Assembly: GCA_016930575.1 (NCBI GenBank)
Contig: JAFGGL010000075.1
Location: 1 to 33,192 of the forward strand
Direction of reading: 5' to 3'
Origin: Clostridiales bacterium
GTDB taxonomy: Bacteria; Bacillota; Clostridia; Christensenellales; Aristaeellaceae
Length of the DNA: 33,192 nt
Shown: in pieces, positions 28,106-30,415 of the stretch
Layout: the number at the start of each line of letters is the position of its first letter
Numbering within the stretch: the first letter of the stretch is position 1
Notes under the pieces: generated by a model
What the model was told of the DNA's origin: nothing
Database searches by the model: none
Seen by the model: the letters and a program-made list of their open reading frames with translations, nothing else
Made by a program: the position numbers and the translations under genes

Positions 28106-28663
28106 CTACCGGGCCGGATAGAAGATCAGGTTGTACATGCCGCAGCTTTCGCCGTAGGGGTTGTTGTAGGCGTGGGGCAAATCGGCGCGGAAGCGCACGG
28201 CCTGCTGTTTGTGCAGCGTCAGCTTCTTGCCGCCGACGGTCATATCCAGCTTGCCGTGGAGCACCAGCAGGTATTCCTCCGTGCCTTCCATGTGCTTGTC
28301 GGAGCCGTGGCGGCAGCCCGCGTCCAGTTCCAGGTAGAAGATCTCTACGTTACGTATGGGATCGTAGGGGAACATCGAGCAGGCGCGCATCATGCCGTTT
28401 TCTTCCTCGATCAGGTTGTCGAACTCCACGTTCGCCACGGTGTATTCCGGCGCTTCCTCCTTCAAAAGCGAGGTCAGCGGCACCTTCAGCCCCGTGGAGA
28501 TCTTGGACAGCGTCGTGATCGTCGGGGTCGACTGCCCGCGCTCGATCTGCCCGAGCATCGGCTTGCTCACGCCCGTCATCCTGGCCACGTCCTCAAGCGT
28601 CAGGCCTTTCTGCGCGCGGATGGCCTTGAGCCGGTTGCCGATCATTTCGGTTTGAATGGACAT
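28106..28663 (-). CDS. XRE-cupin transcription regulator
   Basis: The 185-aa protein has an N-terminal Cro/CI-type HTH (residues about 10-64: IRAQKGLTLEDVARMTGVSK, PMLGQIERGQSTPTITTLSK) and a C-terminal cupin barrel (about 105-183: GCRHGSDKHMEGTEEYLLVL, GKLDMTVGGKKLTLHKQQAV, DLPHAYNNPY). The His and Glu pattern of the cupin metal site is present, so it may bind a small ligand through a metal. AAGGAGG lies 8 bases before the ATG. It probably controls its own operon with the downstream MBL-fold hydrolase via the repeats at 28680-28714. Confidence 0.9.
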   Translation of the reverse strand: MSIQTEMIGNRLKAIRAQKGLTLEDVARMTGVSKPMLGQIERGQSTPTITTLSKISTGLKVPLTSLLKEEAPEYTVANVEFDNLIEEENGMMRACSMFPYDPIRNVEIFYLELDAGCRHGSDKHMEGTEEYLLVLHGKLDMTVGGKKLTLHKQQAVRFRADLPHAYNNPYGESCGMYNLIFYPAR

Positions 28664-28679: not shown

Positions 28680-28714
28680 TATGTTATAGCATGTTTCAGG
28701 CACAGTATAACATA
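28680..28714. promoter_or_regulatory. Inverted TATGTTATA repeat upstream of the XRE-cupin gene
   Basis: TATGTTATA (28680-28688) and TATAACATA (28706-28714) are perfect inverted copies with 17 bases between, placed 17-50 bases upstream of the start. A TATACT hexamer overlaps the distal copy. A likely autoregulatory operator. Confidence 0.6.
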
Positions 28715-28788
28715 TTTTCACGGATGTGCAAGGCGGCCGCCGAACGCTGGTTTCCGCACCGCGTTCTACGAGTCGACAAATACGCCGC

Positions 28789-28809
28789 AACCCTTATAAT
28801 ATAAGGGTT
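28789..28809. promoter_or_regulatory. 21-bp palindrome upstream of the microprotein promoter
   Basis: AACCCTTAT and ATAAGGGTT, perfect 9-base arms around AAT, 31 bases upstream of the -35 at 28841. It could be an operator or a short hairpin; function unknown. Confidence 0.5.
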
Positions 28810-28840
28810 TCAAGACCTCTGAAATATTTTTCAAAATCTA

Positions 28841-28869
28841 TTGACAATCAAAAATCTTAAGCGCATAAT
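28841..28869 (+). promoter_or_regulatory. Promoter of the 23-aa microprotein gene
   Basis: A perfect TTGACA (28841-28846), a 17-bp spacer and CATAAT (28864-28869, 5 of 6). The surrounding sequence is AT-rich. The predicted leader is about 26 bases and includes AGGAGGGG. Confidence 0.88.
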
Positions 28870-28901
28870 GCAATTAATTCCAGGGAGAGGAGGGGATTAT
28901 A

Positions 28902-28973
28902 ATGCCCGCACCTGTAAAGAAACCGGAAGTCAAAAAGCCCGCGCCGAAGGCCGCGCCCAAGAAAGCCAAGTAA
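28902..28973 (+). CDS. 23-aa Lys/Pro/Ala-rich microprotein
   Basis: A complete miniature gene: consensus promoter, AGGAGGGG six bases before the ATG, a 23-codon frame and a textbook terminator 17 bases after the stop. The peptide begins MPAPVKKPEVKK and contains 8 Lys, 6 Pro, 5 Ala, 2 Val and 1 Glu, with no aromatic, Cys or hydrophobic core, so it must be disordered and strongly basic. This composition resembles histone H1-type tails and the Lys/Pro/Ala tails of some bacterial DNA- or ribosome-binding proteins. It is too short for ordinary annotation. A nucleic-acid-binding role is a guess. It is divergent from the XRE-cupin operon. Confidence 0.78.
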   Translation: MPAPVKKPEVKKPAPKAAPKKAK

Positions 28974-28990
28974 TCAAATTGATCATTCCA

Positions 28991-29017
28991 AAGAAGCCGT
29001 CACGCGGCTTCTTTTTT
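28991..29017 (+). terminator. Rho-independent terminator of the microprotein gene
   Basis: AAGAAGCCG pairs with CGGCTTCTT around TCACG and runs into six Ts (29012-29017). Confidence 0.93.
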
Positions 29018-29230
29018 GATGTTCGGGTCATGTTTGCAATAGTATCGCAAACTCCCCGCCCGACCGGCAAAGCCGGTCGATACGAATGCAAGCGGAGAGC
29101 TGCGGCCCTCCGATACCTCCTGTGGATCGGGTTTACGCTTCGCTTATCAGAATACGGCGGCGGATGCAGGATTTTACAGCCCGCCGGATAAACAAAGCAT
29201 ATGCGCGTATGCGCGGCACGGAGGGCAAGC

Positions 29231-30415
29231 ATGAGCGACAGCGCGAAAAAGGGCCTGCGCAACATCATCTTTTTGGGGATGGTGAGCTTTTTTGCGGATA
29301 TTTCCAGTGAAATGGCGTACCCCATCATCCCGCTGTACCTGGTATCGGCGTTCGGCGCCACGCCATTTCTGGTAGGCGTGATTGAAGGCATCGCCGAGAG
29401 CATCGCAAGCCTGCTTCGGGTGTTCAGCGGCTACATCAGCGACAAATACAACCGTAAAAAGCCCCTTGCGTTCTTCGGGTACTTCACGGGGCTTTTATAC
29501 AAGCTGATGCTGATCTTCGCGGGTTCGTGGAGCGGCGTTCTCGGCGCGCGCATTATTGACCGCTTCGGCAAGGGCATCCGCACCGCGCCGCGCGACGTGA
29601 TGGTATCCGACAACGCGGAAGCTTCGCAAATGGGCCGCGCGTTCGGCATCCACAAAGCGCTGGACATGACGGGCTCGGCCATCGGTATCCTGCTTGCTTT
29701 CCTGTTGGTACGCGGCGTCGGCGCGGGAAGCTACAAGGTGGTGTTCGCCTGGTCGATGATCCCCGTGGCGCTTTCGCTTGCGATGTTTGCGTTCATCCGC
29801 GACCGGGGCCGCAAACGGCCGGTGATGAAGCGCGAGCATTTCTGGAAGAATATCAAACAGCTCGACGGCAGCCTGAAGCTGTATCTGGCCATCGCGTTTA
29901 CCTTCACGCTGGGGAATTCGTCCAACGCCTTTTTGCTGCTGCGGGCAAACGCCGTAGGGTTTCTAAACACCGAAGTGATACTGCTTTATTTCATCTATAA
30001 CCTCGTCAGCGCCGCACTGGCGATCCCCTTCGGCAAGCGCTCCGACGCCGTGGGGCGCAAGCGCTTGCTGGTCGCTGGGTACACGGTTTTTTCGCTGGTA
30101 TATCTGGGGTTCGCGTTCGCGTCGTCCAAGGCGCTGATTATCGTGTCGTTCGTGCTTTACGGCTTTTACACATCGCTGATCGCCGGGGTGGAGCGTGCCT
30201 TCATCGCCGAGATCACCCCGCCCGCCGTCAAGGGCACGATGCTTGGATTGCATTCCACGCTGGTGGGCGTCGCGCTGCTTCCGGCAAGCCTGCTGGCGGG
30301 CATGCTGTGGAACGCAATTGGCGCATGGGCGCCGTTTACCTTCGGCGCGCTGATGTCCGCCGCCGCGGCTATTCTGCTGGGCGTTTTCTTCCGCAATAAG
30401 CCCAAAACCGCCTAA
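29231..30415 (+). CDS. MFS transporter
   Basis: The 394-aa polytopic protein has 12 predicted membrane segments. It opens with IFLGMVSFFADISSEMAYPI, typical of a clostridial MFS subgroup, and has the MFS loop signature SGYISDKYNRKKPL after segment two and IDRFGKGIRTAPRD between segments four and five. Substrate unknown. ATG 29231 is used (GGAGG 6 bases upstream) rather than ATG 29201, which has no site. The 213-bp gap before it contains two hairpins (GTTTGC/GCAAAC at 29032-29052 and CGACCGGC/GCCGGTCG at 29061-29079), maybe leader structures. Confidence 0.9.
   Translation: MSDSAKKGLRNIIFLGMVSFFADISSEMAYPIIPLYLVSAFGATPFLVGVIEGIAESIASLLRVFSGYISDKYNRKKPLAFFGYFTGLLYKLMLIFAGSWSGVLGARIIDRFGKGIRTAPRDVMVSDNAEASQMGRAFGIHKALDMTGSAIGILLAFLLVRGVGAGSYKVVFAWSMIPVALSLAMFAFIRDRGRKRPVMKREHFWKNIKQLDGSLKLYLAIAFTFTLGNSSNAFLLLRANAVGFLNTEVILLYFIYNLVSAALAIPFGKRSDAVGRKRLLVAGYTVFSLVYLGFAFASSKALIIVSFVLYGFYTSLIAGVERAFIAEITPPAVKGTMLGLHSTLVGVALLPASLLAGMLWNAIGAWAPFTFGALMSAAAAILLGVFFRNKPKTA

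Follow-up and report, generated by a model that had tools for sequence, protein, structure and literature searches.

Within the window analyzed here (the whole stretch of 33,192 nucleotides, corresponding to contig C24 in a genome of 2.35 Mb and 78 contigs), the space that separates an MFS transporter gene from a divergently oriented XRE-cupin regulator gene contains a 23-codon frame enclosed by what look like all the signals of a gene of its own. The question raised by this locus is whether these parts form a free-standing gene for a small Lys/Pro/Ala peptide, or whether they represent the leader of the MFS gene, a relic, or a small RNA in which the frame is incidental. The relevant features, in order along the forward strand, are as follows.

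28106..28663, minus strand: divergent XRE-cupin regulator gene (HTH_3 and Cupin_2 domains)
28680-28714: inverted repeat TATGTTATA/TATAACATA ahead of the XRE-cupin gene, seen in the sequence
28773-28800, plus strand: second, putative promoter-like site from the promoter scan, TCGACA-16-TATAAT, with 11 of 12 consensus matches
28789-28809, no strand: 21-bp palindrome AACCCTTATAATATAAGGGTT, 10-bp arms flanking one base, seen in the sequence
28841..28869, plus strand: main promoter, TTGACA (28841-28846), 17-bp spacer and CATAAT (28864-28869), from the promoter scan and pattern statistics
28888-28895, plus strand: Shine-Dalgarno sequence AGGAGGGG, with an ATG 6 bases downstream, seen in the sequence
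28902..28973, plus strand: 23-codon open reading frame MPAPVKKPEVKKPAPKAAPKKAK, from ATG at 28902 to TAA at 28971-28973, supported by its composition and by codon usage in the genomic range
28985..29130, plus strand: copy of a dispersed repeat with four hairpins and a length of roughly 130 bp, the first hairpin being the terminator of the unit
28990-29017, plus strand: intrinsic-terminator-like hairpin AAAGAAGCCG-TCA-CGCGGCTTCTTTTTT, with a 3-base loop and six T, equivalent to hairpin 1 of the repeat
29231..30415, plus strand: downstream MFS transporter gene (MFS_1, E 3e-37)

Between the two flanking genes the order is palindrome, promoter, AGGAGGGG, ATG, 23 codons, TAA, and hairpin with six T, and the unit spans 177 bp from TTGACA to the last base of the T-run. 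All of the parts that a sequence-only reading of this DNA had named, from the palindrome through TTGACA, the 17-bp spacer, CATAAT, the ribosome site and the 23-codon frame to the six-T hairpin, were found in place.

To evaluate these signals against chance, we scanned for the compound pattern TTGACA-N16-18-NATAAT-N10-40-AGGAGG, with dinucleotide shuffles and the reversed pattern as controls. The window contains one match, compared with none in 100 dinucleotide shuffles. Across 36 genomes the pattern was found 156 times (a few sites being doubled by overlapping AGGAGG) versus 0 times for its reversed form, and the genome of this organism has three matches. The sequence-only reading had held that the density of signals made chance unlikely, and this is borne out for the promoter and ribosome site, which exceed chance in the statistical sense. 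A subset of the matches (31 hits in 30 loci, one locus per genome) was checked for frames. A frame of at least 60 codons follows in 26 of the 31 and one of 18–30 codons in three, and the remaining two show a TTG start with 2 or 3 codons. With 26 of 31 hits leading directly into such a long frame, the compound pattern marks gene starts. Within the genus, 12 pattern regions were read, four of which overlap the 30 loci: A YceD-like frame was present in six (one of them checked with Pfam), and a Phe/Tyr-rich short frame in two; of the other four, three had frames of 65, 162 and 10 codons, respectively, and one had no start codon. A look-alike promoter in another genome (G004, contig C135) was considered as a relative of the one studied here and rejected, as it lacks an ATG, GTG or TTG at the proper distance.

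The frame itself is strongly biased, as 19 of the 23 residues of the peptide are Lys, Pro or Ala (a share of 0.83). This value was reached in 0 of 100,000 mono-nucleotide shuffles of the frame (best, 15 of 23) and in 0 of 20,000 dinucleotide shuffles (best, 17 of 23). Among the 191 ATG frames of 15–40 codons in the window, nested starts and the frame itself being counted, the next highest share is 0.50. The codon score of the frame is 0.09, which lies between the limits of 0.002 and 0.348 (5–95%) given by usage in 20 window frames taken as genes and exceeds the 95th percentile for uniform codon choice (0.023); coming from 22 codons, it provides modest backing for coding. Residue make-up and codon usage together support the view that the frame is unlike a non-coding stretch. 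The product had been described as fully charged. It contains 8 Lys and 1 Glu, which gives a net charge of about +7, and charged residues account for just 9 of 23 positions.

The hairpin at the end of the unit belongs to a larger element. A search of the intergenic DNA of the same genome revealed two further copies of positions 29007-29126 with 90% and 88% identity (three copies in total), one located directly past a cluster of five tRNA genes and the other past a long protein frame. In the family, the repeat was matched in 27 of 200 genomes, this one included, at E 1e-8. The 5' edges of twelve further copies were inspected; this genome supplied two of them and three congeners the other ten. 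Nearly all of them open with a hairpin TCAAAAAAGTGG...CCACTTTTTTGA, and in at least four of the twelve cases another terminator-like hairpin precedes the copy (by eye). The first hairpin of the window copy has the shared 3' arm and T-run and a different 5' arm. RNAalifold analysis of the window copy and ten of the twelve others (L191 and L192 were left out) gave four hairpins with 41 pairs and a covariation term of about zero; for 7 of the 41 pairs, one or more copies have both bases altered. Rfam gave no match at the gathering score anywhere in the window, the repeat copy included. Mobile element, bidirectional terminator, and RNA are all candidates for the nature of this repeat, whose copies sit at 28985-29130 of the window and at the loci L063, L064 and L184-L192. 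Because the hairpin is common to a repeat that follows other genes, its presence does not count as separate evidence that a dedicated gene exists here. Thus, the six-T terminator is present as the sequence-only reading described it, but as part of a repeat also found after other genes.

The palindrome upstream of the promoter is also not confined to this locus. Palindromes of the same class (AACCCTTRTNNNAYAAGGGTT) were detected in 10 of 200 family genomes, this one included, compared with none for a reversed control, and their contexts are mixed. Copies were noted at window 28789-28809 and at L112, L119, L114, L121, L111 and L116; in L111 and L116 they lie among TTATCCACA boxes (by eye). One genome (G007) has two copies separated by about 6.5 kb, of which one lies 7 bases past an intact tRNA-Ala gene and the other follows a partial duplicate of the end of that tRNA-Ala. 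A second genome (G181) has two copies about 18 kb apart. The end of a mobile element was considered as an identity for this palindrome. In the window, the -10 element of the upstream promoter-like site falls within it. A role of the palindrome as operator for the XRE-cupin gene was also weighed and dropped, because this gene carries its own inverted repeat, TATGTTATA/TATAACATA. Similar sequences are found ahead of three XRE-cupin homologs (by eye), and the inverted repeat is likely an autoregulatory operator.

A peptide-coding gene might be expected to have relatives, and the sequence-only reading had proposed a search of related genomes for a conserved Lys/Pro/Ala pattern with synonymous changes. 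No such pattern was found, as relatives of the peptide were detected in 0 of 308 family genomes at E values up to 10. An initial set of 60 related genomes gave weak matches only, none of which was accepted; one of these is antisense to a gene whose start we take, by eye, to resemble ATP synthase subunit c. In the search of the 308, 28 other genomes gave matches (best E 0.14). When the matches from all 28 were read, they were chance-like pieces of other frames, and no short frame with its own ribosome site was among them. Weak matches were rejected as homologs, as every one appeared to be part of a longer or antisense frame. Exact back-translated matches to KKPEVKKPAP in named genomes were rejected as well: All six stretches lie within longer frames (155–854 residues from stop to stop), five from Methyloceanibacter, Chitinophagaceae, Rickettsiales, Saccharibacteria and Taibaiella and the sixth from a Clostridia MAG. 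The peptide had no match in the plasmids and phages searched, nor in Pfam or NCBIfam. At the DNA level, the matches listed for the whole unit were short ones alone, none longer than about 70 bases. In the accessible portions of the literature, no direct match was found for Lys/Pro-rich leader peptides, H1-like small proteins or hairpin repeats in Clostridia. The peptide thus shows no conservation across the genomes searched.

At E 1e-20, the XRE gene was not found in any of the other five members of the genus. At E 1e-25, it was found in 13 further genomes of the family; in the four closest of them, which were inspected, no such small unit adjoins the gene. Orthologs of the MFS gene occur in five other genomes of the 308 in the family at E 1e-40, one of them in the genus. 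The 500 bases upstream of these five orthologs contain no same-strand frame of 15–60 codons that has a ribosome-site motif (one ortholog, L109, is preceded by frames of 61 and 97 codons, which were taken as the end of the preceding gene).

These observations bear on the possibility that the unit is a relic or neutral by-product, that is, a once functional or recently arisen frame which is transcribed and whose product is inactive. The lack of peptide relatives in the family genomes, plasmids and phages searched is consistent with such an origin, as are the failure to find the XRE gene in the rest of the genus and a terminator that is common to the repeat. However, the signals are intact and near consensus, and the biased residue make-up is unbroken throughout the frame. 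We consider a relic unlikely, though deserving of weight.

Another explanation is that the frame encodes a leader peptide, or uORF, that attenuates the MFS gene: Ribosomes would stall on the Lys/Pro-rich frame during amino-acid shortage or in the presence of an antibiotic and so alter read-through of the hairpin. A short frame with a ribosome site and a hairpin does precede the MFS gene here, and the same series of promoter, ribosome site, short frame, hairpin, and same-strand gene is also present in the same family before a PALP-family gene and DAHP synthase genes. These units, and a fourth with similar parts, were used as a yardstick.

L142, 1563-1637: Cys-rich 24-codon frame MYGMMCCCQQSSCCGGQLCMAFHA before the PALP-family gene, with hairpin and strong leader fold
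L175, 927-1019: Phe/Tyr-rich 30-codon frame before DAHP synthase in a genus member, with hairpin and strong leader fold
L181, minus strand: Phe/Tyr-rich 30-codon frame before DAHP synthase in a genus member, with hairpin and strong leader fold
L153, 1558-1614: 18-codon frame MVVVFVRKGAICRSREAA with promoter, ribosome site and hairpin, where the contig end hides any downstream gene

The PALP-family gene behind the Cys-rich frame is presumably cysteine synthase-like, a name we gave it from its sequence. By their outward signs, the Cys-rich and Phe/Tyr-rich short frames are likely leader-peptide attenuators. When leader folding was compared with dinucleotide shuffles, the first three leaders gave z values of -2.72, -3.28 and -2.16, and L153 gave -2.75. 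In contrast, the part of the window message that precedes the hairpin has less structure than its shuffles (z +1.76), and its value lies above each of the 14 other stretches tested. A strong leader fold is not specific to attenuators, since good folding (z -1.25 to -3.36) was also seen in the opening 112 nt of the messages of five YceD genes, which are not known to be attenuators; five other ordinary gene starts lack a strong fold (z -0.96 to +0.63). As a separate observation, the folded 5' ends of the YceD-like genes of this genus (L173, L176, L178, L179 and L180) hint at a structured leader. The absence of a strong fold nevertheless separates the window unit from the four short-frame leaders, and the low structure of its message suits translation.

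Other comparisons with these leaders were also made. The 5' arm of the window hairpin has no evident alternative partner (2.5 of 13 bases paired, with 168 of 200 shuffles equal or better), a test which argues against attenuation and was given little weight because just one of three controls stood out. A duplex test was negative for all four leaders tried and was given equally little weight. The stop codon of the frame is 258 bases from the MFS start, versus 115, 127 and 134 bases in the controls (the last start being placed by eye). Unlike the leaders before the cysteine-synthase-like and DAHP synthase genes, with which it shares a promoter, a ribosome site, a short biased frame, a T-run hairpin and a same-strand gene, the window unit has a hairpin borne by a repeat that also occurs after a tRNA cluster and a long protein frame, a Lys/Pro/Ala bias with no clear link to the MFS gene (such a bias would not point to a drug-type transporter), and no counterpart before any of the five MFS orthologs. 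On the other hand, the promoter scan at its threshold found no plus-strand promoter-like site in the stretch from the hairpin to the MFS start. The frame also ends in Lys-Ala-Lys, which fits the Arg/Lys-X-Arg/Lys motif described for macrolide-dependent arrest (PMC13410324). Attenuation of the MFS gene is judged improbable, given that the hairpin is part of a repeat, that 258 bases lie between stop codon and MFS start, and that the orthologs have no such leader, and it keeps some small probability because no other MFS promoter is visible.

A small regulatory RNA carrying the short frame incidentally is very unlikely: The promoter and hairpin would delimit about 142 nt, a usual size for such RNAs, but folding of the transcript does not exceed that of shuffled sequences (z -0.35), Rfam yielded no match at the gathering score, and both the strong ribosome site and the biased frame would be left unexplained.

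Several known systems resemble the predicted peptide in part. Like the KPAA domain of AlgP/PhaF in Pseudomonas and the tails of histone H1, it is dominated by Lys, Pro and Ala and positively charged; disorder is predicted for AlgP and assumed here for the window peptide. Binding of DNA, and perhaps of polyphosphate, has been described or proposed for such tails in AlgP, PhaF and histone H1 (PMC9239181). In AlgP, the tail is 195 residues long and follows a helical domain of 124 residues; a region of 154 residues within the tail contains 25 perfect KPAA repeats (PMC9239181). In contrast to AlgP, the window peptide is 23 residues long, contains KPAP once and no KPAA, and has no other domain and no family match. 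Judging from its sequence, it is not a member of the AlgP/histone H1-like KPAA family, and the likeness to a histone H1 tail that had been suggested for it applies to composition and goes no further. By description, the frame is also similar to the small proteins of the global smORF catalog, in being short, intergenic and equipped with its own ribosome site. That catalog comprises 2.7 billion distinct sequences, 84.7% of which are singletons, and its authors drop singletons that have no homolog since false positives are common (PMC11364881).

Taken as a whole, the reading we favor, at somewhat better than even probability, is that of a free-standing, taxon-restricted gene for a basic microprotein. 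The idea of a complete miniature gene holds as regards its promoter and ribosome-site signals and its coding-like frame; a dedicated terminator and conserved relatives did not emerge. On this reading, the unit would be both transcribed and translated. Its message of about 142 nt would arise from a promoter of the sigma-70 type at 28841, presumably starting near 28876, and the strong, unstructured ribosome site would allow translation of the 23-residue Lys/Pro/Ala peptide with its net charge of about +7. Transcription would end at the hairpin of the common interspersed repeat, a copy of which lies just past the stop codon. The peptide, probably too short and polar to fold, may bind polyanions such as DNA, RNA, polyphosphate or wall polymers by charge. 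As an orphan small gene, the unit is a credible candidate; its kind is ordinary, its composition is unusual, and its terminator is common to a repeat. A more specific version, in which a recently born, species-level gene would encode a bare polycationic "tail" protein that has no folded domain, acts by itself and binds nucleic acid or polyphosphate through its charge, its 3' end closed by the interspersed hairpin repeat, appears rather doubtful at present.

The comparison of its leader fold with those of likely leader peptides of the same family offers a simple, though not fully specific, way of separating microprotein genes from attenuators. The repeat-borne hairpin terminator suggests how units of this kind may be completed from dispersed parts. 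If translated, the frame would be a further case of the 20–30-codon genes that are missed by bacterial annotation, and its product would be an unusual protein, composed of an H1-like tail and nothing else.
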